60,000 nt of DNA from Rhizopus arrhizus (taxonomy: Eukaryota; Mucoromycota; Mucoromycetes; Mucorales; Rhizopodaceae): NCBI GenBank assembly GCA_024220505.1, contig JAKZZE010000032.1, positions 377,501 through 437,500 of the forward strand. Direction: 5' to 3'. Below are positions 5,754 through 60,000 of the stretch, one piece after another; position 1 is the stretch's first letter, and every line of letters begins with the position of its first letter. The notes beneath the pieces were generated by a model. The model was not told the DNA's origin and ran no database searches. It worked only from the letters and a program-made list of their open reading frames with translations. Made by a program: the position numbers and the translations under genes.

Positions 5754-7570
5754 ATGGCAAATGCTAAAATTGATCCCAACTCTGCAGTCTATGCAACCGA
5801 TGAATATGGTAGACCTTTTATTATTGTTCGTGAAGGTCAACAGAAATCAAGATTACATGGTTTAGATGCTATTCGAGTAAGAGAGAAATAGAGACACGCG
5901 CTTCCATCTTTTTTTTTACACACTTTTTTAGTCTCACATTTTGGCTGCAAAAGCTGTTACAAGCATCATTAAATCATCACTGGGACCAAGAGGTTTAGAC
6001 AAAATCTTAATTTCTCCTGATGGTGATATCACAGTAACTAACGACGGTGCTACTATTTTGGATCAAATGTCTGTTGAACATCAGATTGCGAAATTATTAG
6101 TTCAACTTTCTAAAAGTCAAGATGATGAAATTGGAGATGGTACAACTGGTGTTGTTGGTAAAGAGCAAGAGAAAAAGAGGAGGGATGGGGAACAGTTGGA
6201 GATTAATATTCTTTTTATAGTGTTGGCTGGATCTCTTTTAGAACAATGTGAACAACTTTTAGACCGTGGTATTCATCCCATTCGTATTGCAGATGGTTTC
6301 GAACGTGCTTGTAATGTAGCTGTTCAACACTTGGATAAAATCTCGGATACAATTGAATTCAGTAAAGAACACTTGGATAACTTGAAAAAGACAGCAATGA
6401 CTAGTTTGGGCAGTAAAATGTAAGTTCTGAAAGCAAGAAAATAGAGCAGTAGCGTATTCATATTTCTTTTTTGTTAGTGTTTCCAAATGTCATGAACAAT
6501 TTGCTGATATTGCAGTGAACGCAGTCTTATCCGTTGCCGATTTAGAAAGAAAGGATGTTGATTTTGAATTGATCAAGGTAGACGGTAAATTGGGTGGATC
6601 ATTAGAGGATACTCTCTTGGTACATGGTGTGGTAGTTGACAAGGACATGTCTCACCCTCAGATGCCTCGTGAGGTCCACGATGCCAAGATTGCCATCTTG
6701 ACCTGTGCCTTTGAACCCCCTAGACCCAAGACAAAGCACAAGCTTGATATCACCAGCGTTGAGGAATACGAAAAGCTCAAAAGCTACGAAAAAGAAAAGT
6801 TTGAGACGATGATCAAGCAAGTCAAGGACTCTGGCGCTAACTTGGTTATTTGTCAATGGGGTTTTGATGATGAAGCCAACCACTTGCTGTTACAAAACAA
6901 GTTGCCTGCTGTTCGTTGGGTAGGTGGACCTGAGATTGAGTTGATTGCTATCGCCACCAACGGCCGTATCGTCCCTCGCTTTGAAGATCTTTCATCTGAA
7001 AAGTTAGGTCAGGCTGGTGTTGTTCGTGAATTGGCATTTGGTACAACCAAGGATAGAATGTTGGTGATTGAGGAATGTGCAAATACCCGTGCTGTCACTG
7101 TCTTTGTTCGTGGTGGTAATAAGATGATTATCGATGAAGCCAAGCGTTCCCTTCACGATGCCATGTGTGCTGTTAGAAACTTGGTGCGTGATAACCGTGT
7201 TGTCTATGGTGGTGGTGCTGCTGAAATCAGTTGTTCTTTGGCCATTTCCAAAGTGGCTGATGAGATCTCATCGATTGAACAATATGCTATGCGTGCCTTT
7301 GCTGATGCTCTGGATGCTACACCTTTGGCTCTTGCTGAAAACTCTGGTTTGCCACCTATTGAAACCTTGACTGAAGTCAAGGCCGAACAAGCTACGACAA
7401 ACAACCCTCAATTGGGTGTAGACTGTTTATATAGAGGATCCAACAACATGAAGGAACAGCACGTTTATGACCCTCTTATCTCAAAACGTCAACAATTTTT
7501 GTTGGCTACTCAATTGGTCAAGATGATCTTGAAGATTGACGATGTTATTACAACCACTGAGTCAATGTAA
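5754..7570 (+). CDS. CCT5: CCT epsilon subunit of the TRiC cytosolic chaperonin
   Basis: This subunit of the ATP-driven cytosolic TRiC ring folds actin, tubulin and other clients. Four exons (5754-5876, 5932-6157, 6221-6419, 6478-7570) join in phase to 546 codons, close to the usual length of about 540. The N-terminus reads [10 protein letters not shown], as in CCT5. Group II chaperonin signatures follow: SLGPRGLDK, the nucleotide-binding GDGTTGVV (split by intron 2), [11 protein letters not shown] in the apical domain and [12 protein letters not shown] near the C-terminus. Introns are 55-63 bp with GTAAG/GTAAA donors. All catalytic regions look intact. It converges with IMPDH, leaving 166 bp between the stops. 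The CCT5 assignment, as against other CCT paralogues, rests on near-continuous similarity to the epsilon family. Confidence 0.97.
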
Positions 7571-24038: not shown

Positions 24039-25866
24039 TTAAGGAATGAAAAGAGGGGTTTGTACACCTTTATTGATACGTTCATATCTAGACATTTCTC
24101 TCTCATGCTTCAAATCTTTTAATTGTTTTTCCAGCTTTTTCTTTTCCTGTGCTTCTGTTTCTAATGCACGTTGATGTTCGATTTGGATATCACTAATCAT
24201 CTTTTTGAATTCTTTACGCAGTGAGGCAGTGGTCGTATTGTCCTTTGTTTTCCCTAGACGCACATTCTTTGCTCTTTCTTCCAACAGACGGCCTTCCAGC
24301 TGCTTGACCTCCCTTGTCAGGAGCTCGATCCGTCTTTCATAATTGGCCCTATCATTTTCAAACTCCATCGCGGTCCCCGTCAGCCTATCGAATTCTTTCA
24401 GGATGCCTTCAAAGTTGGCCTCCATCGCTGCACTTTGCTCAATCCAGGCGGCCTCTCGTTCATAAAACTCGGCACCGGGACGGATCCGTTGCTGAAGCTC
24501 GGCCTCCAACTGGCTGATGTGGGCCTCACGCGCCTCGAGTGCCCTCGACTTATCCTTCACGAGCCACTCGAGGTCGCGGCAGGTCGACAGCAGCTTGTCA
24601 TGCTCCTGCCTCATCCTTTCGTACTCACGATCGGTCTTGTCCAGCAAGGCCGCTTGCTCCTGCTGTGCCTCCCCTCTGTCGTCCAACGGTTGGTTTCGGA
24701 GCATGAGCACCTCCTCACGGCATCGATTGATCTCGTCCTTGAGGGCCACTTCTTGTCTTTCAAATTCCGCGGCTTGTGCCTGAATCTGCTTGAGCTGGGT
24801 CTCCATGCTGGCCACCAGCGCTCTCAGCCGAGCCACCTCGGCCTCTGGGTCCTCGGACGGGTGTGATGGAGGCCCGGAGGGCGGCTGCCTCAGGTGCTGT
24901 TCAAGGCTGGCTAGTAAACTCAGGGTATCGGTGGTCGTGCTGTGATGCACATTGTGTTTCTTGAGGATGGAGAGTAGCGTCTGTGTGATGTCTTCTAGAT
25001 CGGATCGCATCTGCGGTGATGTGCTGGATCGCTTTTCGAGTTGCTCTAGTCCATGACAGAGCACGCCTGCGGTGTGTTCCAGTATCCTGTATTGTGTCTG
25101 AATCTCTTCTGTCTTTAGCTCTTTTAGTTGTCTCGTCAGTTCCTCTACCTTCCTATCCGCCTCCTGAGCTTCGTCTCGAGTCAAGAGCACAGATTGTCGG
25201 TTGGATGCGAGTTGGGAGAGTGAGTGGGACGTCTCTTGAATTTTTTTATCCAATTCCAGTTTGGATGCCGAATTTCTTACTTTTATCTTCAATTTATCAC
25301 GACGCTGTGTGGAACATGAGCAAGTCATAAAAAGATGGGCTCATCGATTCGTACCTCTTTTAAATCTTCAATTTCTTCAAATGACATCACTTTATATTCG
25401 CGAGCGTCAATCATGGCTTGAGAGACAAGCAACTGTAAAAATAAATCTTGTTGATGAACCTCCGACTTGATATGTTTTGTGGGTGACCTTATTTTCCACA
25501 TATTCTCAAGTTCTTGAGAAAGATCGTCGTCTAATGTGGTGATGGAAGAAGTAGAAGAAGATAAAGAAGAATGATAAATATTGGGTTCTTCTACTTTAGC
25601 TATAATACATAAGAAAACTCTTTCTTTCATAAAAAATAAGTAGTACCTTGCTGAGAGCTTTTGCGTGCAGACGCTTGAGAATCTCGAATGCGGAAAGGAG
25701 ATCGAGCAGGTAATGTAGGTGAAGCGGATGATCGAACAGATTGTCTATCGTCTTCTTTAACAGGTGAGGATTTTAAAGGTTCTTTCTTTTGAAAATTGAA
25801 AAAGTTGGTTCGAGCTAATTTCAAACCCATGGGTCTATTGTCATCATCAGTTGTCTGTCTGGGCAT
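24039..25866 (-). CDS. Uds1 (up-regulated during septation)-domain coiled-coil protein
   Basis: Exons 25866-25647, 25599-25355 and 25304-24039 join in phase to 576 codons. An unstructured Ser/Arg N-terminus is followed by the Uds1-type block: DLFLQLLVSQAMIDAREYKV, MSFEEIEDLKE, then RRDKLKIKVRNSASKLELDK. The remaining 400 or so residues are long heptad-type coiled coils rich in E, Q, R and L, with a Pro/Ser break near the SGPPSHPSEDPE segment. It probably acts at septa or in polarised growth, by family. An upstream ATG at 25936-25934 followed directly by a 58-bp intron would add four residues and may be the true start. The coiled-coil exon is noticeably GC-richer than its neighbours. Confidence 0.85.
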
Positions 25867-43492: not shown

Positions 43493-43572
43493 AAAAGTTT
43501 ATTTAAAAAAAGTTTATTTAAAAAAAAAGTTTATTTAAAAAAAAAGTTTATTTAAAAAAGTTTATTAAAAAA
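43493..43572. repeat. AT-rich tandem repeat (AGTTTATTTAAAAAA-like unit)
   Basis: Five imperfect copies of a unit of about 14-17 bp differing in A-run length, lying just beyond the ribozyme end of cassette 1. Confidence 0.85.
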
Positions 43573-43637
43573 AATTAAAAAGAAAAAGACCGGAAAGAAA
43601 AAGACTGGAAAGAAAAAAAGACAAGACACTCAGTTAC

Positions 43638-43719
43638 GACATTGTTAGCCATACTTTCAAAACCATAAAAGATATGTTTCCAGATACCGCCACGTGGAGG
43701 CCATGTCGAATAGGTATCC
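43638..43719 (-). ncRNA. HDV-like self-cleaving ribozyme, copy 1
   Basis: Read on the minus strand. P1 is GGATACC (43719-43713) paired with GGTATCT (43688-43682), with a G-U wobble at the predicted cleavage site as in HDV. P2 is GACAT (43707-43703) with ATGTC (43642-43638). P3 is GCC/GGC enclosing the loop TCCACGT; its CC can pair with the GG after P1 (P1.1). P4 pairs CATATCTTT (43676-43668) with AAAGTATG (43657-43650), with one bulged U. J4/2 is GGCTAAC, with the catalytic C complementary to 43648. Predicted cleavage is just 5' of position 43719. No activity has been shown; the call rests on the complete fold and on covariation with copies 2 and 3. Confidence 0.88.
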
Positions 43720-44159
43720 TTCTACCTTCTTTTTTTTTCACGCAGGGAGAAGCAGCCAGCGATGGGGATATTTGCGACCTATTGTAAACCTACGCTACCA
43801 GAAACCCTCCTGTTCACATGGTTTAGCTTATAGAGGTCGCTGGAAAGTCAACCCGTTGAGCGCCCCGTCCTTAAGGACAACCCAAGCAGCCAGTTGCAAT
43901 CCTACTCTACAGTAATGCAGCATGAGACGTTTGCGGAGAGCCCCACGCGATCAGGCCGCCCAACCAACTGTGATGTCGTGGAAGGACGTTCACCTTCGAC
44001 TGGAGAGCCCGAGTCGAGGCTGATCTGATCACCCATCGAACACACGACTACTAGACCAGCTAGAATCGTACGTGCATAACCGGAGAACCCACGAAAACTA
44101 ATAGTACAACATGATCACCCACCCCCACACCCCACACCCCACTCCTCACTACCCGTTAC

Positions 44160-44455
44160 CCGTTACCCATTACCAAGCACCAAGCATCGAACACCAAGCA
44201 CCAAGCATCAAACACCAAGCATCGAACACCAAATGTCAATCAATAAACAAGAGCAATAAACCAAGAAGCAAGAGCGATGAAACAATAAACCAATAAACCA
44301 ATAAACCAATGAACCAATGAACCAATGAACCAATGAACCAAGAAGCAAGAAGCAAGAAGCAAGAAGCAAGAGCAATAAACCAATGAACCAATGAACCAAT
44401 GAACCAAGAAGCAAGAAGCAAGAAGCAAGAGCAATAAACCAATGAATAACGAACA
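44160..44455. repeat. Nested short tandem repeats inside cassette 1
   Basis: Repeats of ACCAAGCA/ATCGAACA-like units (44170-44232) are followed by runs of AACCAATG (8 bp) and AAGAAGC (7 bp), with the whole block partly duplicated (about 44280-44375 and 44376-44455). Confidence 0.9.
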
Positions 44456-44533
44456 AGAAACAAGAATAATGAACCAGTTGCAGAAAGTTGAGAGCAGAGA
44501 ACCAGAAGGCAATAGATAGCAAAAGTATGAATG

Positions 44534-44569
<36 letters not shown>

Positions 44570-44582
44570 ACGATACGGTGCC

Positions 44583-44589
44583 TTATATA
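44583..44589 (-). promoter_or_regulatory. TATA-like element of cassette 1
   Basis: TATATAA on the minus strand inside a block (A run, GTATATAAGGCACCG) that aligns with TATA blocks of copies 2 and 3. It lies 865 bp upstream of the predicted ribozyme cut. Confidence 0.55.
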
Positions 44590-44599
44590 CTTTTTTTTT

Positions 44600-47007
44600 T
44601 GTATTCACTCCTTATCAAATTGTTACATTCTGTGACTGAATGAGAAGTTTTGAGGTAAATATTATCAATTCCAACTTTAGTTTAGTACATACCATCAAAA
44701 TCATGTGGTATTCTTGTTATTCTTACCTAACCTCACCTTATTAAGCCAATTAATATCTTTGGCTTGTCAATTTACTTCTGAAAGAAAGAAAAGAAAATAG
44801 AATAAGACACGGTTTCATTTAATAGAATAATTAATAAAGGAAGGTAGCAAATGAATAAAAACTAATGGTAGTGTAGCGTTCTTTATATCGTAAAAGCTGT
44901 ATCAAGTTTATATTTTATTGCATTTTTGTTTTTGTTTTGTGTTGTTTTACGTTTCGTGTTGCTTTTACATCATATTCTTCTTTCAATTGCCTATCCAAAC
45001 GCAAACCATATAATATATTCCAAAAGAAAAAATAGAAGAGTGAAAGAACGTTAAATTTTAAAGAGAACCATCAAACAAAACTTAAATGAATGTCAATTAA
45101 TCGTAACAAAGCAATATACAAAAGAGAAGAGTGGTTGATGCTTTATATAAATAAACAGCTGATATAAAATACAGATTGTATCCTTTTATGATCGAATAAA
45201 TAGTATAGATGCTCTACCCTTTATCTATTACAATTTTCAAAAAAAGGGAGAGAAAAAAAATACACAGAATTCTGGAATGGTTAAAAATGAGCTAAATTTG
45301 ATTAGTTCACTATAATCTATAACAAAAATCAACTTGACTTTTCCTTTCAACATTCTTCAAAAACCAACTTTGTGCTGACATGCATTCTACTTTGCATTGC
45401 ACATTATTTCATGGCTTTTATGGCTATTTTAATACAGCATGAGTTGTGAACAACGGTATCATGCCTATACAGCTTAGTGTTGAGATTGCAAATGTATTTT
45501 CATGCAACATATGATAACATGTAACACTATATAGCAAGTTCTGACAAGTTTGCTCTAATCTGACTTCAGAATGTGTGGGTTGTTTTGTTTCATAAAATCG
45601 TTATTTTTTTTTTTACTCAGCCTTTGTTTATTTATCAACAAAACAATTGCGTAAGGAAAAAAAAAAAGGATTATTAATTTCAAAAATTGTTTAGACATTC
45701 AAACTAGCAACAGCAATCGATTAATTTTGCTCAATTGCATGTTATTATTTTAAACTATTATCATGACAGAATATAAACTATAACTGACGGAAGTAGATAT
45801 TAAAACAACGGTTACCATAAAAACAAATCAATCCTTTTTAAGCTCAAGTTTTACAAATAAACACATGACTTTAAGGAGTAATTTAATTTATTGAGTTTTG
45901 CTGATAAGGGGTTTTTTATGTTAAGAAAAGCAAAAGTGATATATTTTATATATATTTTTTTATCAAAAATAATGGTCGGATAAAACTAGTTCTTATCCTA
46001 TAAGAAATAAAAATTTGGGAAAAAGTATCTACTTTTAAAAGATAGCATCGGCGAAAAAAAAAAAAAAAAGGAGGATTTGCAAGCATTATAAAGTCAGTCA
46101 TGAGGATCCAAAGTTTTAGTAACGGTTCAAAGAATAAAGAACCCAAGATTATTAAGTATGCATGCGATAAAATGTTATTATTTATATTGAACTCGAGTAC
46201 GTGTGTATCTATTATATATGCTTTAGTATTCTAGTATTAAAAAAAAGTATTCTCTTCATTTTCTTGCAATTTTTTTCTCAGTCATTTTTATATGCATTGT
46301 TTATCCAAAAGTACATTCAACTAACCTATAAAGGATACCCTTGTGAACGGCAAAGGTTGTAAAGAAAAAGTTCAAGAAAGTTATCGAGTTTCTGATGTCA
46401 AGCAAAAACATGGAATTGAAGATGGGAATCAAAAGAGACTTGACATCTAGTATATGCTCTCTCTGTTCTCCACTATATAACCAGTTCTGTATAGTGTTGT
46501 TATGATTTAACCGGTATTTTTCATCTTTTCTTTTGTTTTTTTGAGGCTTTTTTTTTTGAGTTAAAGGCACAAGACTAATAATTCGGGTTAGCATTATTCC
46601 GATACACTCTAGCCAATCATATGCCAGAATGACCACCTATCGCTGTAATCGCATTTTTCACTAATGATCATACTATTGCACAAGACACTCGAAATAATAT
46701 TGCAGTATATGATTCTATAGGCTGTCAGACTGAAGAGTACTATGAGTTAGTCTAGCTGTTAAACACTACACTATATGGCATATGGCATATGTTATGGTGT
46801 GTATATAGGACGGAGTTACAACCAATCCCACCTCTTTAGCAGGGCTTCCATTTTTATTTTTATTTCTTTTCTGTTTATAATTCACAGCAACCTCAAACGC
46901 AGTTTAACATTAATGAAACAAATGGCCAACTGTAACAGAACAACTGAAGAAAAAAGAAGGATCTACACAACAAAATATGGTTTAATTTAGTAATTAGAAG
47001 AACAACA
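44600..47007. other. Gene-free AT-rich DNA
   Basis: No coding signal; A/T homopolymers and scattered short repeats only. Confidence 0.55.
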
Positions 47008-47890
47008 AAAAAAAAGAAGAAAGAGGAATGATTAACAAAGCTGTTTGACCAAACTCTAAAGTTGTGATACTCTCTACATAATAGCTTCAAAACAGACAGT
47101 CTAAGCGGAAGTAGTAGTAACAGTATCAATAGTAGTAGCAGAAAAAGGAGAGAAAAAAGAAAAGCAGGACAAGTGTTCATCACCACAAACCTTATTGTCA
47201 ACCCTATGATGACCGTTTACTTTTACTTCAGTTGCAATATTGTATAGGATGTATGGCCTATGCTAGTAGATAGATCGAACAATGTGCACGTACTTATATA
47301 AAAAGAAAAGGAAAAAGAAAAAGAAAAAGAAAAAAAAGAAAGAGCAATGGTTATAGACAATGGAAGACAAAGAATGAATATAAAGAGGAAATAAGGTCAT
47401 GACAGCATCAATTCTTTATCTATCGAAACAAAAACAAAAGCGATAGCTAAAGGAATCTCTATAAGAGAAGTATGTCTGGTAGTTGACTATGCAACAATGA
47501 ACAGTGATGCTCAGGAGATGAATATGTGTAGAGTAGGTCAAGTCAAGGTAAGTGACACAAGATGATGAAAATGGGAAAAGACAGTTGTAAATGTTTAGTC
47601 ATTGTATGTACATGACTTGATACAAGACGATGCTTTAAACAAACGATCTATTAACAAATAAATAAAAGAAAAGAGAAGAGAAGAGGAAGAGGAAGAAGAA
47701 GAGGAAGAGACTTTGTATTTATTGGATTACCTTTGATGTTGAAATGATGGAGTTGCACAAAGATGGCTTAGTAATACATCTTTATTTGCTCCTTCTTCCT
47801 TTTCTCTTTCTCTCTTTTTTCTTCTTTACCTTTCATGTTTATCCCATGTCTTTTTATACAAGCAAAAGGCTTACTTTACAGCAAAGACAT
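47008..47890. repeat. Segmental duplication, copy A
   Basis: Aligns in direct orientation with 54452-55236 over most of its length at high identity by eye (for example CTTCAAAACAGACAGTCTAA and ACATGACTTGATACAAGACG in both). Copy A has about 62 extra bases around 47137-47198 that B lacks. There is no open frame in common. Purine-rich (GAAAAA)n and (GAAGAG)n tracts are inside. Confidence 0.9.
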
Positions 47891-50288
47891 AAACAGTCAA
47901 GTGTAGTCATAGACATCTCTAAAGGATCTTCTTTCCATTAATCTGTCAACAGTTGAAAACAAGCAAACAATCGATGAAAGCAAGTCTATGAAAGATGCTA
48001 CCAGACCTATTCTTCCTATACGAAAAGCGGTTTAGAGCAGCTCAACAAACAGACTAGTAACTACACATCAAGCAAAGAGGAATGAGAAGGAAAAAGAAAG
48101 AGGAGCGATAGAAAAGCCTTAGTTCAGGAATACAGACGCTTGTCTACTGAAATCACCACACAATTTGAAGTAAACAAAAATCAGGAAATAAAAATAGAAA
48201 TAGAAATAGAAGTATAGAGAACAGAGAGATAGCAGTAGACAATACTTTAAGCATAATGCAATCTCAGTCAATAAAAATAGGAAATGGGATAATAGTGAAT
48301 AGAAAGGAAATAGTATGAATGGATAACGCTATGAAGAAGAAAGAGAAGAAGAAAAAGAAAAAGATGATGATGATGATGAAAGTATATGCTATATCATTAT
48401 AAACAAAGAAATAGTCATGGATCATAGATAGAATTCTGTATGCTTTTGAATCCAAGTAGAGTAAAGGACAAACTATCTAAGAAAGAAAGAGAGCAGAGAT
48501 AAGAAAAACAAGAGCAAGAAGACAGCAAAAGAATGGTTTATTTCGAAGAAAGGGAAGAAAGGGAAGAGAGAGGACTGTGCTTGTGAAAGTGATTGTGTGA
48601 TAGATCAACCATGGGTGTATATATATATGGATCTAGTCAAGATCCACTTACTATGGCAATACTATGAAATTAGGAGAGATACAAGACTATGTGTACATGA
48701 TTTCACCATGACAACCAGTTACTCACAATTCAACATCAATGCTGATCATCCAATGGCAAGTTTACATGACAAGATATGATACAGTAATAGACAAAAGTCA
48801 TCGTGTAGAGCTTATCCTCTATTGCCTATAATGGACATAGCCATGCTATACATGCTTATTATTCATGTATGTCAAACAAGGTAAGAAGTGATGGAACAAG
48901 TAATAAGACAGTGGGGTCAGTTACTATGAGACTGTTCAGTGACAATCTTAAGGTCTTACACTTGATCAATCTATATCTTTTTTAATAAATCCCCATTTAC
49001 AAAGACATTCCTTGTACTATTTCTCTATGTTATTTCTCTATATTATTTCTCTATATTATTTCTCTATGTTATTTCTCTATGTTATTTCTATATGCTATTT
49101 CTATATGCTGCTTAGTTGCTTTTCATGTACACAAAAGGCTGTTTGAGAGGGATTTTTATAAGATACTGTAAAGCTTTATCATTAGTGAATCAAGCATTCC
49201 GATGTAAACTAATTAGTCTATAAAAAAAAAGCGAAAACACAAACAAAGCCATGTTCTCCATTCTACACTATTCTGGCACAGTGACTAGAGGATGTGAAGA
49301 AAAGTGTCTTTGTAACCTAAAGAATGACCAAGAAAAGGGAGGAAAATAAGGATACCCCATAAATGGAAATAAGGTCAAGTACGGTCATGGATAAACTAAT
49401 GTCCGACAAGGTCAGTATCCTTCACGTGATCTTGTCTGTCATTGACGGACAATGAAATCAATTAAGGCACATTGTTGTCGATCCTATTTCTTTGTTCTCT
49501 CTTTTTCTTCTTTCCTTTTTCTCTCTCTCTCTCTTTCCCTTTCTCTTTCCCTTTCTTTTCTATTCACTTCGTAAGTACTTGTCAAATATATATACTTTTG
49601 CGTTACAAAGTGGAATTGCTTGTCCTAATGTCGTCCAGATCTACTTCCTGTGAAGGAAAAAGTTGAATAGATGGGTCAATCTAGAAGGAATGGACAACAT
49701 AATGTAAGTCATTCTGACAACATATTCTATTACTTTACTAATATCTCTAAGAGAATAAGGGAGCTTCTTTCATGGTTTATTTGAATACTTTTCGTTCATC
49801 AGCAGAGAATATTGGCTGGCATATGTTTTTTTTTTTGTACACTCACAAGAACACTCTCTTTCTCTGCTGACAACATCATTGCTAAAACAAGTAATAAACA
49901 AATAATAAATGAATGGTGAATGAACAATGAACAATGAAAGCTCAAGCAAGAAAGAATAGCAAAGTATACTTTAGATCAACAGTTATGATCATACTATTTG
50001 TAAAAGGTAATAGGACCGAGGCTATACAGGGTATATGGTTGGTACTTTGTCTCAATATTTACATAGTATTAAAGCCTTGGCTTGTAGATATAAGGCAAAG
50101 AAGGCATGGTATTATACAAATCTATTTCAGCTCTCTTCCTTTGTATACTAAGGATGATGGTCGATATACATGAAAGAAGCCAAAGAATATAATAAACAAT
50201 GTAAGTAACATGAGAAAGAGAGACAGAGAGAAAGACAAAGTATGATTTTATTACATAGGATATATATAAAAGTACATGTACTAAAGTC
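47891..50288. other. Gene-free DNA with simple repeats
   Basis: GA-rich and GAT-repeat tracts (for example 48340-48380) and a CT-rich block at 49498-49560. No coding signal. Confidence 0.5.
49018..49110. repeat. 13-bp tandem repeat (TTATTTCTCTATG)
   Basis: Seven head-to-tail copies of a 13-bp unit with one or two substitutions each; the last copies read CTATTTCTATATG. Confidence 0.9.
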
Positions 50289-50366
50289 GACATTGTTAGC
50301 CATGTCTTTACTGTAAAGACATGTTTCCAGGCACCGCCACGTGGAGGCCATGTCGAATAGGTGCCC
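50289..50366 (-). ncRNA. HDV-like self-cleaving ribozyme, copy 2
   Basis: Read on the minus strand. P1 is GGGCACC (50366-50360) with GGTGCCT (50335-50329), again with G-U at the cut. P2 is GACAT (50354-50350) with ATGTC (50293-50289). P3 is GCC/GGC with loop TCCACGT. P4 is a perfect 10-bp hairpin (50323-50314 with 50310-50301, loop of 3 nt). J4/2 is GGCTAAC, with the catalytic C complementary to 50299. Relative to copy 1, P1 positions 3 and 4 change A-U to G-C and U-A to C-G, that is, both partners change together. Confidence 0.9.
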
Positions 50367-50480
50367 TTCTACGTTCTTTTTTCCAAAAAGGGGAGAATCA
50401 GATAAAGCGTAAGCAATAAATCGAAGAACCCCTGCTGAGCTGGTAAAAGTGTAGAGTTGTATTGCTGTAACTCTCTCAGT

Positions 50481-50560
50481 GTTGCTGATCTGCTATATTT
50501 CTGATCTACTATATTGCTGATCTACTGTATTGCTGATCTACTGTGTTGTTGGTGCGTTGT
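50481..50560. repeat. 16-bp tandem repeat in cassette 2
   Basis: About four and a half copies of a unit like ATTGCTGATCTACTGT, degenerating at both ends. Confidence 0.85.
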
Positions 50561-50624
50561 GTTGCTGACTTACTGTGCTGTCGTGATTGGTAGAGAAAGA
50601 AAAAAGACATCGGATCTGGCTCCC

Positions 50625-50631
50625 TTTTATA
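50625..50631 (-). promoter_or_regulatory. TATA-box of cassette 2
   Basis: TATAAAA on the minus strand, followed by GGGAGCCAGA. Copy 3 has TATAAAAAGAGGAGCCAAA in the matching place, so the block is shared. It is 265 bp before the predicted cut. Confidence 0.6.
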
Positions 50632-50639
50632 CATTTTTT

Positions 50640-52750
50640 GATCTTATCAAAGTTTAGTCTGTGTTGGTATGACGCGATGACAAGAAATTAACAAAAAAAA
50701 AAAAAAAAAAAAAAAAAAGCTCCTGCAAAATAGTCCGTTTGTTACATTTTTGACCATGAGAATCCGTCTTTCTCTCACTCTTCAAGCTTTTATCATGTCA
50801 TTCATCAGTCAAAATCTAAAAGAAACCAACATCTTCAATCATCTTCTACCCTTTATCGTCATAATATTGAAACATAACCAGTAAGTAACTATGCGATAAA
50901 GCTTGTTGTTATACTAAATTAGTCAATTCGTCCTTAGAACCAATGAAGCACAAGTCCTAGGGTTTTACATGATCATTCTACTTTGACCTAGTCATCACTC
51001 TCAGTCGACAAGGAAGCATATAAAAATATTTAGAATCACAAGGTCTCCGAAAAGTGTAATAATGCTCTATAGATCCAGAATTAATATCCTAGGATTCAGT
51101 GTTGCATAATGATGATGCTACAGTCTTTTATAGAATGTAAGTCAAGTCTACTTCATATGTCACTTTATTACTAGAAATAACCAACGCCTTTTATTTTCCC
51201 TAGCATGAATCACGTCAAATACAATAAAGAAGAAGGAATGGAATAAAATGATGACTTTTGCCAAAAAGACATCAAATCAAAGAGAGTTATCTTGTCCTTT
51301 ATCTACTCATTCCTTTGTATGAAATTGGATATGAAGAAGCATCAAGTGATACTTTGTGAACATATCATATCTCGTTGTTCTTTCTATGCTTTGTTCTCTT
51401 CTGCTGTTCTTTGATCGCTTGGTGACAAATCTAGTTCATTTGATGTATATCTAATTTACTCCTTTTGTTATTATCACGTTTCTTGAAATAGGTTGAGCTG
51501 TAGTCTTAGTCAATTGTGAAACAAGACTGTTTAGCAATAAAATGTTTGGAAGAGGGGTTTATGAGTGAAGGATTTGTAGTTTCTTCCTGTATGCTTTTGA
51601 TATTCTCTGATATTTGCCTACATGATTACAACTGACCTCTTGTTAATGCTCCACAAACCACACAAATATAGGAAAAAACTACTGTATAATAAAGAAGAGC
51701 ACGATGGTATTCCGGTAAGGAACCAAATGAACAAATCACAAAGGAATAAATTTATTGTTTTATTACATATCCTTTACTGTTGATACTATGGCTGCTGGGA
51801 ATAGCTGTTTTTGGTGTTTGTTAGTAAAGGGTATATCGTATGGCTAGAATGTCATAATGTTTTATAACTCACGAAGAAAAAAAAATAATCAGGATTTCTC
51901 TATATGCTTTGTTCGGTGTACTGAATGAATAGTAGTAGAATGGAACATAAAATGTTGTGAGGATACCAATTAAAAGCCACATTTGATTATAGTGAGTGTT
52001 ATTGAACTCTGAATACTGTGTGCTTAATATTGGTAGGTTATATGGACGTGCAAAATATGAGCTAAGCAACAAAGTCATATTATGCTTTAACAGTCATAAA
52101 TATCCCCATTCATTGTTACATGAATTTGATCATCGTTATTGTATTGTTGGTTATAAGATTTATATGCTTAATTTTGTAGTCGTAGCTTCATGTCATAATT
52201 TTTAGGTTTAAAAATACATTAAAAATTAGATATAAAGCTTTGTCGTAATAAAATATATCTAATTGTTTTAGAAAAGAATAATTTTATATCTGCTCATAAT
52301 ATGCTTTGAATTAAGATTTATGTTATTGCTGCTAGGTAAATATCTAATGTTTGTATTTATTAAAGAATGCTTTTATTGTATAATGAAATATATTGAACCG
52401 TTTATATCATATTGTCTACAAAAAGCTATAAATTCTATCATCCGAAGCCATCTCAGACGAATTTTATCGAATAAGATCCGTGGCTTCAGCTATCAGTCCA
52501 AAAGCTGTCTTATTTTTGTACGGAGCGCCGCATTAAGTGAATGGAAAGGAGTATTAATACGGACTATGCTGTTGGATTATTTAGAACAAGGAGCAATATT
52601 TAATTTTGAACAAGGAATGAAGGAAAAGAAAATTACTGAATTAGTACTCGTATGTAACCAAAGGAACAAATGAAATCCTTTTGCTGCAAGTGACTTTTGT
52701 TTGACTGTTAAGAAAGTGACCTCTTTTCAAATAATTTTTCTGAAGAAAAA
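50640..52750. other. Gene-free DNA between divergent cassettes 2 and 3
   Basis: A 27-nt A run near 50692-50718. One 117-codon frame (52320-52673, +) has no recognisable motif. Nothing else seen. Confidence 0.45.
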
Positions 52751-52753
52751 AAG

Positions 52754-52760
52754 TATAAAA
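52754..52760 (+). promoter_or_regulatory. TATA-box of cassette 3
   Basis: GTATAAAAAGAGGAGCCAA aligns with the TATA block of cassette 2 with one short gap. It is 160 bp upstream of the predicted cut. Confidence 0.6.
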
Positions 52761-52913
52761 AGAGGAGCCAAATTACAAAATCATTTTCTTCTTTACAACT
52801 GTTGACTGTGTTCATTGTTCATGACGGCTTCCTGGGCAAGGTAGAGCGGCTGACCCCAGATAAGCGGCCACAAATGTCGACTTCCTCTGCAGTATAACTA
52901 TGACGAAATCGAA

Positions 52914-52990
52914 GGGCACTTAAAGACATGGCCTCCACGTGGCGGTGCCCGGAAACATATTTTCATTTTGAAAATATGGCTAACAATGTC
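52914..52990 (+). ncRNA. HDV-like self-cleaving ribozyme, copy 3
   Basis: P1 is 52914-52920 (GGGCACT) with 52944-52950 (GGTGCCC). P2 is 52925-52929 (GACAT) with 52986-52990 (ATGTC). P3 is 52931-52933 with 52941-52943 around the loop TCCACGT. P1.1 pairs CC (52935-52936) with GG (52951-52952). P4 is a perfect 9-bp hairpin, 52956-52964 with 52970-52978, loop ATTTT. J4/2 starts GGCTAAC with the catalytic C at 52980. Here the first P1 pair is G-C and the last is U-G, the reverse of the wobble position in copies 1 and 2. Predicted cut between 52913 and 52914. Confidence 0.9.
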
Positions 52991-52999
52991 AGCTTTTTT

Positions 53000-54451
53000 T
53001 TTATATTAAATAAAAATGAAAAATCACTTTTGAAAAAAAAAAATTCCTAAATATTGCTCTTGTCTTTTACCTTTCGCTTTTGGTCTAAACCGCTTATTTG
53101 TTTTTAAACCACTTGTTATACTAAGCATTTCTCTAATACTATCTCTACTCTTTTAATTGAAAAGTCAAGTTGTGTAATAAAGTAAGCATAAGACCAGGTA
53201 TTATATGATTACTAAATCAAAGAAAAAGAAAAGCAAAAAGAAAGAAGCTGGTGGTAAAGTTGAGATTCCTTAGTCAACATTCCCAAAAGGAATCTAATGA
53301 GTGGTGAGCCAAGTCTCTTATTTTATTTTGTTATTCAGTCAGTATGTATGCTAAGTACTCAGTATATTAATAGTATGCCTTGTCTATTTTCCTTTTTTTT
53401 CTTTTATTTTAGAAAGCTTCTTTTGTTTTTTGTTTTCCACATGCAGGTTTGCATTCAGATGAAGACAAGAGATGAAAAAGTAACTACTACTATTCTTTTG
53501 TTTGGCTGTTTCCTTTTTTTTTCTGCTTTTTATATGTCTAAAGTTATTTGGTTAAGAAAGAGTATGTTTGTAGGAATGATGGAGAATAAGGAGGGATGAG
53601 TAAAGAAGCTAAAGGCAAGCAAGTAAGCTAGACTAATAAGGCGCATCGTGTAACCATAACTACCCCGACTTCCCCCTTTTCACCTTCCTTTTAAGGAAAT
53701 TGGTGATGTATCGCTTACTTGCTTATAAGCATAGATGATAGCATGTAACAAATGGATGTTGTAGCGAATAAAAGATTGTTTTGTTTTTATTTGCATATCG
53801 ATGAAATAAAGAAATAGAATGGGTTTTTTTCTCTCTTTTTATATAATGATTATAAATACAATTGAGAAAATGACAAACAGACATCAGCATATATGGAAAA
53901 GTAAGCAAGTAGGTCGTGTCTTTGCAGACTGACTGTGTACGAGATGACCAAATTCAGAAAAGGGTAAAAGAGAAACGGATTCTAAAGCGGGTATATCAAG
54001 AACAACTGCTCTGGTGTCACTATTGTTGCACAAGATGCTTGTGTTTAGAGTTATAAATAAAATGTGTTACATAAGCACAAAGTTTATTTGAACAACGATT
54101 TCTCTTTTTCTTCTCGTTTGTAAACACTATGAATCTTGTTAAAGCAGCATTACAACTCTCTGAAGTAAATACCAACAAAACAAAAAAGATAGCTGTCTCC
54201 CTTTTTCAACATAAAAAAAACATCAACTCAAAGCGCAACGTTAGTAATTACAACATGCTCTTTAATTCGACACATTTCTTTAGAAGAAACTCCCTTCCCC
54301 CTCCCCCCTTATATACCTTTGTAACTAACAACATACCAAAAATAATGCATAACAAGAATAACAAAAGGATAAATAACAATATTTCGTCAGCTAAAAGAGA
54401 GGGGTTGTCACCACGAGATGCAAGTCTGCCAAATTAACTGTGTATAGCAAA
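53000..54451. other. Gene-free DNA
   Basis: No convincing coding signal; a 102-codon frame at 54129-54437 is Asn/Lys-rich and looks like chance. Confidence 0.45.
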
Positions 54452-55236
54452 AAAAAAAGAAGAGGAATAATTAACAAAGCTGTTTGACCACACTCTATAG
54501 TTAGGACACTCTTTACATAATAGCTTCAAAACAGACAGTCTAAACGGAAGCAGTAATAACAGTATCAATAGTCAACCCTATGATGACCCTTTACTTTTGC
54601 TTCAGTTGCAATATTGTATAGGATGTATGGCCTATGCTAGAAGATATATCGAACAATGTGCACACACTTATATAAAAAGAAAAGGAAAAAGAAAAAGAAA
54701 AAAAAAGAAAGAGCAATGGTTATAGACAATGGAAGACAAATAATGAATATAAAGAGGAAATGAGGTCATGACAGCACCAATTCTTTATCTATCGAAACAA
54801 AACAAAAGCGATAGCTAAAGGGAGGTCTATAAGAGAAGTATATCTGGTAGTTGACTATGCAAGAATGAACAGTGATACTCAGTACATGAATATGTGTAGA
54901 GTAGGTCAAGTCGAGGTAAGTGACACAAGATGATGAAAATGGGAAAAGACAGTTGTAAATGTTTAGTCATTGTATGTACATGACTTGATACAAGACGATG
55001 CTTTAAACAAACGATCTATTAATAAATGAATAAAAGAGGAGAGAAGAGGAAGAGAAAGAAAAAGAGAGAAAGAGACTTTGTGTTTACTTGGTTACCTTTG
55101 ATGTTGAGTTGATGGAGTGACACATTATCTCTTTTTTCTTCCCTTTCTCTTTCCCTTTTTTTATTTTTTATTCTTTTCTTTTTGTGTTTATCTCATGTTC
55201 TTTTATGTATACACAGGATTTTATTTTACAACCGAG
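54452..55236. repeat. Segmental duplication, copy B
   Basis: Direct-orientation partner of 47008-47890, about 7.4 kb apart. It lacks the 62-base segment of copy A. Identity falls off in the CT-rich tail after about 55130 but is still traceable (TTTATCTCATGTTCTTTTAT). Confidence 0.9.
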
Positions 55237-58200: not shown

Positions 58201-59180
58201 CAACCATAATTAACTTTCTAAACGAATGAATAACAGTAATAAAAAAGGTAAACCGGAACAAAAACCAAACAGAACAGAGTAAATAATAAAAGCTTGCCAA
58301 ATAGACAATCCTTATAATAACTGTTGGGTTTACAAATAGAAAAGTAATCAAGAAAACAGAAATGTCGGGGACACTACAGATTAGAAGAATGTTGTTAATG
58401 TCGACTGCTTAATCTCAACCGTACTTCATTTTCTCTCTCCTTTCCTTTATTGTCTGTTCCTTTTATAGCATCTTCTTTTGTCCTCTTTGATATGTAATAT
58501 TAGAAAAAAATCCAACAAGTCTATGTTTGAATGTGCTTTTATACATATAAAAACTGACTCTGATAATAAGAAGAGCCGACAACTCAGCTCCATAGGAAGG
58601 TAATAAAGAACATAGAAATAAAGATATACATCAAGTCTCTAAACTCATGACTCGATTCTTTTTAGATAATCAAGATCTTGACTATTATTTATGCTGCTTA
58701 CAAAATATGTATTTATTCTTTCATTAAAAAGAGTGTTTGGTCCATTCTAAACCAAAAAGTTGGTTTTTTCTAGGTAATAGTATAATTGTTTCTTTTTTTT
58801 TAAAAAAGTATAGATTTTTAAATCTCCACAAAATATTGACTGAATATATTATACCAGCCATAGGGTCTTCAGCCAGAAATTTTGGATTGTATCGGCTGTT
58901 GAGCCCTAGTCTTGGGGGAAATTTTGACCAGAGCTGCAGCAATAATCGGAGAATGAAGTTAATTCCCAGATTCACAACTTCAACTATTAATAACTACATG
59001 AAAACTAAAGAGAACGATAAACCAAATACACCAAAAGATTCAGCGATTTTTTTGCTACTAGGAACCATATTGTTCGTTGCCAAATATCAAAATGGGGGTG
59101 AGTTATTTTAAAAAAACATGGTTTTTTCTGTGTTTTTTTAAATAATTTTTGGACGGCTGATTTTACTCCAAAATACATAA
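55240..59180. other. Gene-free DNA with simple repeats
   Basis: Includes (CT)n at 56793-56830 and C/T tracts near 57505-57542. A 124-codon frame at 58737-59111 (+) has no recognisable domain. No conserved gene was found. Confidence 0.5.
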
Positions 59181-59184
59181 TATA

Positions 59185-59708
59185 TATTCGGCGAGGCCCT
59201 ATTGGGCCTTATAGAGGGCGGAGCAAGTGAAAATTTAGTACCCCCTCTAAGCGGCGACGGTTTTGAAATCTTTACCAGCGACCCTTCAAATGATGACAAC
59301 AGAGACTATGCACTTTGGCATACCTGATGAAGGGTTCATGAGGGGCGAAGGTGTATTATATATTCGGCAAGACCCTATTGGGCCATATAGAGGGCGGAGC
59401 AAGTGAAAATTTGGTACCCCCTCTAAGCGGCGATGGTTTTGGAATCTTTACCAACAACCCCTCAAATGATGACAACAGAGACTATGCACTTTGGCATACC
59501 TGATGAAGGGTTCATGAGGGGCGAAGGTGTATTATATATTCGGCAAGACCCTATTAGGCCATATAGAGGGCGGAGCAAGTGAAAATTTAGTACCTCCTCT
59601 AAGCGGCGATGGCTTTGAAATCTTTACCAGCAACCCCTCAAATGATGATAACAGAGTCTATGCACTTTGGCATACCTGATGAAGGGTTCATGAGGGGCGA
59701 AAGTATAG
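59185..59708. repeat. 176-bp tandem repeat, three copies
   Basis: Units start at about 59185, 59361 and 59537 (TATTCGGCRAGRCCCTATTG), with period 176 and the last unit complete to GGGGCGAAAGT. Each holds short inverted arms, TAGAGGG with CCCTCTA about 30 bases apart and GGCCC-TATT-GGGCC. The units are richer in GC than the surroundings. Confidence 0.95.
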
Positions 59709-60000
59709 TATGATGCTTTTCTTCAAAGGGATAAAGGATAAACAGTAAATATATATTGCGATGTGGGATACTCCTTAGAAATGCAGATACAGAACATTGC
59801 CCAATATGTAGTTTCTCTTTTACCAAGGGTATATCGAATCCCTTAAGAGCTAGGATATGTAACAATCATGGGTCTACGTAGATGGCTTTGGGTAATAATA
59901 GACACACGATGCCATAGTGACGAGGGAATAAAAGTTGCACATGCTCTATACTGATGAAATAGAGAGGCTATGGCCTTTTGGGAAGATGGTTCGGACATGT
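59709..60000. other. Window end, possible transposon remnant
   Basis: A weak coding-like phrase (ADTEHCPICSF) at about 59783-59815 recalls the zinc-knuckle end of non-LTR retrotransposon ORFs, but stops surround it. Not firm. Confidence 0.2.

Follow-up and report, generated by a model that had tools for sequence, protein, structure and literature searches.

Hepatitis delta virus-like ribozyme motifs in Rhizopus arrhizus as predicted 3' ends of repeated genes for short noncoding RNAs

A stretch of 60,000 nucleotides of Rhizopus arrhizus DNA (hereafter the window), which sits within contig C26 of a genome of 50.3 Mb in 41 contigs, contains three motifs of the hepatitis delta virus (HDV) class of self-cleaving ribozymes. 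Their membership of this class is near certain from the sequence and its covariation, and self-cleavage is predicted. The reading we favour, with a probability of about 0.6, is that these motifs form the 3' ends of repeated short noncoding RNA genes, each gene (or unit) being composed of a TATA promoter, a payload, the ribozyme and a poly(A) signal. Since AATAAA follows all 31 of the genomic copies that were read with their flanks and a TATA box precedes 27 of these, we predict that the ribozymes process short noncoding RNAs by trimming them at the 3' end. An earlier note on this DNA had spoken of dispersed ribozymes; the class stands, while the elements would be more aptly called the 3' modules of RNA genes that occur in many copies. 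The three motifs are located as follows.

43636..43719, minus strand: copy 1 (type 1), HDV-class motif; predicted cut before 43719, general-acid C at 43648
50287..50366, minus strand: copy 2 (type 2), HDV-class motif; predicted cut before 50366, general-acid C at 50299
52914..52992, plus strand: copy 3 (type 3), HDV-class motif; predicted cut before 52914, general-acid C at 52980

The earlier note had placed three segments of about 80 nt here without stating their strand; the segments exist, and copies 1 and 2 turn out to lie on the minus strand. The blocks GCCTCCACGTGGC and GGCTAACAATGTC, which had been described as identical in all three, have exact matches in the window at these sites alone. 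The parts of the HDV layout that had been claimed are all present. P1 has 7 bp and begins with a G in all three copies, J1/2 is 4–5 nt long, P2 consists of 5 bp followed by a G-C pair past a bulged A, P3 has 3 bp and the loop UCCACGU, P1.1 pairs CC with GG, and J4/2 reads GGCUAA. The differences that preserve pairing in P1 were also found as described, the A-U pair that copy 1 has at position 3 being G-C in the other two copies, and position 4 being U-A versus C-G. P4 has three different sequences, all of them hairpins, of which that of copy 1 requires one bulged U (an unpaired cell in the column alignment). A scan with a sequence-light structure descriptor (7-bp P1, P3, P1.1, J4/2 and P2), of the kind that the note had proposed, recovers exactly the three copies in the window, and gives no match in 100 dinucleotide shuffles of it.

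Across the whole genome, the motif pattern has 30 matches, on contigs C22, C24, C25 and C26, and the reversed pattern, used as a control, has none. Two type-2 copies on C25, both with an altered first L3 base, were added by BLAST. This brings the total to 32 copies (13 belong to type 2, 11 to type 3, and 4 each to type 1 and to a divergent type 4), a census that may miss more divergent copies elsewhere in the genome; a covariance model run on the fetched pieces found no additional full-length copy there. All copies but one (the type-1 copy at C26:482006) were read with their flanks, and these 31 correspond to 13 distinct sequences. Every copy read falls in duplicated blocks, which show 83–99.9% identity in those aligned pieces that are 500 nt or longer. 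The segments C25:235657-240883 and C25:247461-252687 are the arms of an inverted repeat that match almost perfectly, with 99.9% identity along 5.2 kb. Both arms hold one type-2 and one type-3 unit, and comparable arm pairs are also found on C22 and C24. In the window, a direct repeat of about 0.7 kb (47010-47759 and 54449-55124, 85–95% identical and 7.4 kb apart) flanks the pair formed by units 2 and 3 on both sides.

The HDV-class layout with covariation, first described for the three window copies, is upheld and strengthened by the 29 further genomic copies. Both alignments used for this comparison contain distinct copies only, identical ones having been dropped. For the 9 distinct copies of types 1–3, 99.2% of the cells are paired and 5 of the 27 pairs change on both sides, which is reached by 5 of 500 shuffles; P2, P3 and P1.1 are invariant within this set, and the number of pair types is not above that of the shuffled alignments. 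When type 4 is included (12 distinct copies), pairing is kept in 98.5% of the cells and 12 of the 27 pairs change on both sides: four in P1, five in P4, two in P2 and one in P3, the paired changes in P2 and P3 depending mostly on the single type-4 sequence (four genomic occurrences) and one of the P2 pairs hinging on the alignment around the bulge. None of 500 shuffles is as high on four of the five measures, and 9 of 500 are as high on the fifth, the number of pair types. Sliding the structure along the same alignment yields 0–2 two-sided pairs. Because the structure was drawn from the same sequences, the two-sided changes are a stronger sign than the percentage of paired cells. Among the 12 rows, J4/2 is GGCUAA in 9 plus type 4 and GGCCAA in the remaining 2, and P1 opens with a G-U pair in 10 and with G-C in the other 2. 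Other departures, in addition to the L3 change on C25, are the loss of the P2-terminal G-C pair in three type-3 copies and an altered J4/2 in three type-3 copies.

With the Rfam models, whose use had also been proposed, the three sites match an HDV-type family at permissive settings, but no family reaches its threshold. At gathering thresholds there is no match in the window. Permissively, RF02682 (HDV-F-prausnitzii) matches the three sites at 30.7, 28.2 and 26.1 bits, compared to a gathering score of 44, and RF01787 matches copy 3 at 23.1 bits, compared to a threshold of 37. The best scores in the whole genome both belong to type 4 (35.7 bits for RF02682, cut-off 44, and 28.7 bits for RF00094, cut-off 50); permissive searches with these two models also match 8 and 4 of 14 control genomes, respectively, always below the cut-off. 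RF02682, which is of bacterial source by its name, is the nearest Rfam model, with a similar L3 and GGCUAA. The nested double pseudoknot, the 7-bp P1 starting from G, the 3-bp P3, the 2-bp P1.1, the P4 hairpin and the C within the GGCUAA of J4/2 are shared with the general class of HDV-like ribozymes (HDV, CPEB3 and the drz series). Unlike HDV, CPEB3 and the drz series, the Rhizopus copies have a G-C pair past the bulged A ending P2, and sit in repeated nuclear units with TATA and AATAAA.

PMC5640933 describes 230 fungal HDV-like variants in 26 species, whose cut site has a C-G pair, whose P4 carries a loop E and whose P2 and P3 are separated by an extra base; 11 earlier fungal examples conform to the general consensus. 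Judged by its sequences, the Rhizopus family differs from this fungal variant in two features: the cut-site pair is G-U or G-C in the 12 rows instead of C-G, and P4 is a continuous hairpin (with one bulge in type 1) without the loop E. At the P2/P3 junction, where the variant has its extra base, a single G is present that can pair with a C across the bulged A in 9 of the 12 rows. The literature searches listed no paper on HDV-like ribozymes in Rhizopus, though an older list may have a Rhizopus entry. The theta ribozymes of gut phages, which are HDV-like and are proposed in PMC10879173 to form tRNA 3' ends (tRNA trailers), provide a precedent for an HDV-like 3'-end role in small RNAs. Unlike these, the Rhizopus sites have no adjacent tRNA (ARAGORN finds none in the window nor in the fetched pieces L022, L023, L029 and L037) and lie in a nuclear fungal genome. 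In the viral contigs L041-L065, 25 loci carry the core CCTCCACGYGG..GGNAAC..GGCTAA, many of them with short P4 segments; these may be HDV-like phage ribozymes, L3, P1.1 and J4/2 being shared by construction. A pattern narrower than this viral one has no match in bacterial and archaeal genomes, which is little informative, and a BLAST search with copy 3 against phages gave nothing better than E 0.4.

In addition to the motif, its covariation and its copy number, the TATA and AATAAA sequences and the GC islands are observed around the ribozymes. For the window, the units and the predictions attached to them are as follows.

52753..52769, plus strand: unit 3 TATA box (GTATAAAAAGAGGAGCC), predicted promoter, from the GTATAWAAR scan
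52783..52913, plus strand: payload of unit 3, a predicted noncoding RNA without a tail; start estimated; GC-rich island in DNA of 33% GC
53005..53014, plus strand: unit 3 predicted poly(A) signal, ATTAAA / AATAAA, from sequence and offsets
50618..50632, minus strand: unit 2 TATA box (GTATAAAAGGGAGCC), predicted promoter, from the GTATAWAAR scan
50367..50602, minus strand: unit 2 payload, predicted noncoding RNA; start estimated; variable number of short repeats (7-unit alignment)
50247..50252, minus strand: unit 2 predicted poly(A) signal, AATAAA, from sequence and offsets
44580..44590, minus strand: unit 1 TATA box (GTATATAAGGC), predicted promoter, from the GTATAWAAR scan
43720..44560, minus strand: unit 1 payload, predicted noncoding RNA, from GC content and a four-copy comparison
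43561..43566, minus strand: unit 1 predicted poly(A) signal, the first of several AATAAA, from sequence and offsets

A sense-strand GTATAWAAR is present upstream in all 27 of the copies of types 1–3 that were read, at a distance of 871–900 nt for type 1, 206–314 nt for type 2 and 155–161 nt for type 3. The 15.5-kb block of the window contains five such sites on both strands, three of which are the ones upstream of the three ribozymes. AATAAA is found downstream in 31 of 31 copies read, at 71, 34–36, 17–19 and 54–57 nt for types 1–4, respectively. It occurs within 40 nt of 7.7% and within 75 nt of 13.2% of random block positions, although the odds for TATA and AATAAA are a guide only because the signals were picked after the sequence was seen. 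The GC content of the region is 33%, and all but one of the 14 most GC-rich windows of 100 nt between 42 and 58 kb fall inside ribozyme units; over 7 blocks, all 19 in-range ribozymes are located at an island whose GC content is 46% or more. The blocks C22a, C22b, C24a and C24b each have four further GC islands without a ribozyme. One of these ribozyme-free islands corresponds to a reading frame of 94 aa that has a GTATAAAA box to itself, and another resembles a two-exon protein gene, and because some of them hold protein reading frames, GC islands mark genes of both kinds. The 94-aa frame occurs in four copies that are 99–100% identical (C22:180028-180312, C22:313488-313772, C24:448700-448984 and C24:488036-488320); it belongs to no Pfam family, and its two database relatives are unnamed proteins at 94% and 81%.

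The extent of the homology between units points to the side of the ribozyme on which the associated RNA lies. Copies 1 and 2 are joined by a repeat that extends from within P4 to a point 16 nt upstream of the cut site; past the ribozyme, the two copies have different sequences. The module common to types 1 and 2 would thus be the end of the payload together with the ribozyme. For type 3 (11 copies), the mean identities are 0.969 for the promoter, 0.835 for the payload, 0.969 for the ribozyme and 0.947 for the downstream sequence. In a type-3 alignment covering 7 of 13 units, the promoter and the ribozyme stay conserved, and a 100-column window of the payload falls to 60–71% identity with the window copy in 4 of 6. 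The type-2 payloads vary chiefly in the number of short repeats, and the 3' 441 nt of the type-1 payload (43720-44160) are GC-rich and near-identical across the four genomic copies.

Several candidate identities for the payload were set aside. A tRNA-like payload finds no match with ARAGORN in the window or the four fetched pieces, and a hairpin directly before the cut site is no better than shuffled sequence. Origin as a copy of another gene was rejected as well: the type-1 payload matches just its own four copies in the genome, and the type-3 payload matches type-3 units alone, two units on C25 being too diverged to be listed. The matches to MIR408 and MIR2118 at 47654-47834 are attributed to chance, as they are below the gathering scores and lie in purine/pyrimidine runs. 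In the three type-3 haplotypes, the native hairpin arms pair best in 3 of 3, by a small margin in two.

A number of observations weigh against the assignment of the ribozymes to the 3' ends of short RNA genes. The TATA and AATAAA signals were chosen post hoc, and both are common in AT-rich DNA. Ribozyme units own only 2 of the 6 GTATAWAAR sites in block C24a and 2 of the 5 in C22a, and no GTATAWAAR lies within 900 nt of type 4, which has just a TATAAATA near -230. The ribozyme is itself GC-rich and boosts the islands, that of type 2 being mainly ribozyme. Copies 2 and 3 have little in common beyond the ribozyme, and the argument from upstream homology therefore rests on types 1 and 2. The payloads of types 1, 2 and 4 (mean identities of 0.984, 0.944 and 0.963) diverge no faster than their own promoters (0.980, 0.955 and 0.972). 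The payloads are also not generally more stable in folding than shuffled sequence (z-scores against dinucleotide shuffles of 0.97, -0.14 and -3.52 for the type-3 haplotypes and -1.4 for the 3' part of type 1), so that no general claim of a structured RNA is made. Finally, the sequence that follows the type-3 unit is also well conserved over some 800 nt (86–100% per window), which leaves room for a role of the downstream RNA.

Such a role could be that the RNA downstream of the cut is the useful product, the ribozyme stripping a capped leader and setting the 5' end of a noncoding RNA or gene transcript. The conservation after the type-3 ribozyme is in agreement with this, as is the fact that the HDV fold remains on the downstream piece. 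The explanation is nevertheless an unlikely one, considering that AATAAA comes only 17–71 nt past the ribozyme in every copy read, that 11 of 11 listed stop-to-stop frames of at least 100 aa at 43.5–56 kb have no Pfam match above the cut-off, and that types 1 and 2 diverge immediately after the ribozyme.

The ribozymes could also be the 5' ends of non-LTR (long terminal repeat) retroelements, or of non-autonomous relatives, with the blocks as old insertions. Marking the 5' ends of retroelements, as in R2 and L1Tc/ingi, is what HDV-like ribozymes of eukaryotic repeats are best known for (PMC4035085 and PMC3774820). The common point with the Rhizopus motif is an HDV-like fold within repeated eukaryotic DNA; the ribozyme blocks are multicopy. 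In block C22b, a set of open reading frames (ORFs) for gag, reverse transcriptase-RNase H and integrase (C22:300998-305391) is located about 2.5 kb downstream of a type-3 copy, on the same strand. This set looks LTR-type, however, and no such ORFs are found in the homologous flanks of the other fetched blocks. Of the ORFs in the window, 19 were scanned and none of them matches a reverse transcriptase, whether non-LTR or other, no genome-wide search for one beside the ribozymes having been made. Types 1 and 2 have their homology on the upstream side of the cut and not downstream, which disfavours a retroelement with a 5'-end ribozyme because such an element would share its downstream side, and each unit is preceded by a TATA box of its own. 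A role at retroelement 5' ends is accordingly less likely than a 3'-end role, and we consider it quite improbable overall. It is more improbable still that the motifs are relics of once-active ribozymes, carried along by segmental duplication and out of use, since this fits the location of all copies read in duplicated blocks (83–99.9% identical) and the altered L3 base and J4/2 of some C25 and type-3 copies, but not the paired changes by which P1, P2, P3 and P4 all retain pairing, the retention of every part in four types far apart in sequence, or the type-3 promoter and ribozyme outlasting the payload.

Other features of the window were noted in passing. The protein encoded at 24042-25337 shares 98% identity with a Rhizopus arrhizus protein. 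Positions 6434-7567 contain an exon of a TCP-1/cpn60 chaperonin, a second copy of which, 99% identical, is present on C22, and C22 and C26 may therefore have duplicated or homologous stretches. The frame at 15665-16480 matches the DDE superfamily endonuclease (DDE_3) and is likely a transposase. A 176-nt unit is present in three tandem copies (92–95% identical) at 59178-59711.

If the ribozymes do end short RNA genes, RNA polymerase II would start about 30 nt past the TATA box and read through the payload and the ribozyme, and the nascent RNA would fold co-transcriptionally into the nested double pseudoknot. Self-cleavage immediately 5' of P1, in which the C of GGCUAA would act as the general acid, would then release a tailless payload RNA with a 2',3'-cyclic phosphate, while the ribozyme would remain on a short uncapped 3' fragment which receives the poly(A). 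This cleavage chemistry is predicted because the motif belongs to the HDV class; that the units are transcribed, and what the payload RNAs then undergo and do, is likewise inferred. In work on yeast, ribozyme-ended transcripts are reported to tend toward nuclear retention. For fungal relatives, cleavage products have been demonstrated (PMC5640933). The units resemble the engineered cassette of promoter, RNA, HDV ribozyme and poly(A) signal, and we tentatively propose, at a little under even odds, that they are its natural counterpart: a repeated nuclear family producing tailless cyclic-phosphate RNAs, with one payload whose evolution far outpaces that of its promoter and ribozyme.

To our knowledge, few genomic HDV-class ribozymes have a known job outside mobile elements. 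PMC10879173 likewise describes most of them as lacking one. The 32 copies in defined units suggest a job that is directly testable, namely the formation of tailless 3' ends of nuclear noncoding RNAs. If this is true, Rhizopus would be using the design that laboratories have built for guide RNAs, and its copies would constitute a natural series of variants for the study of structure and kinetics.

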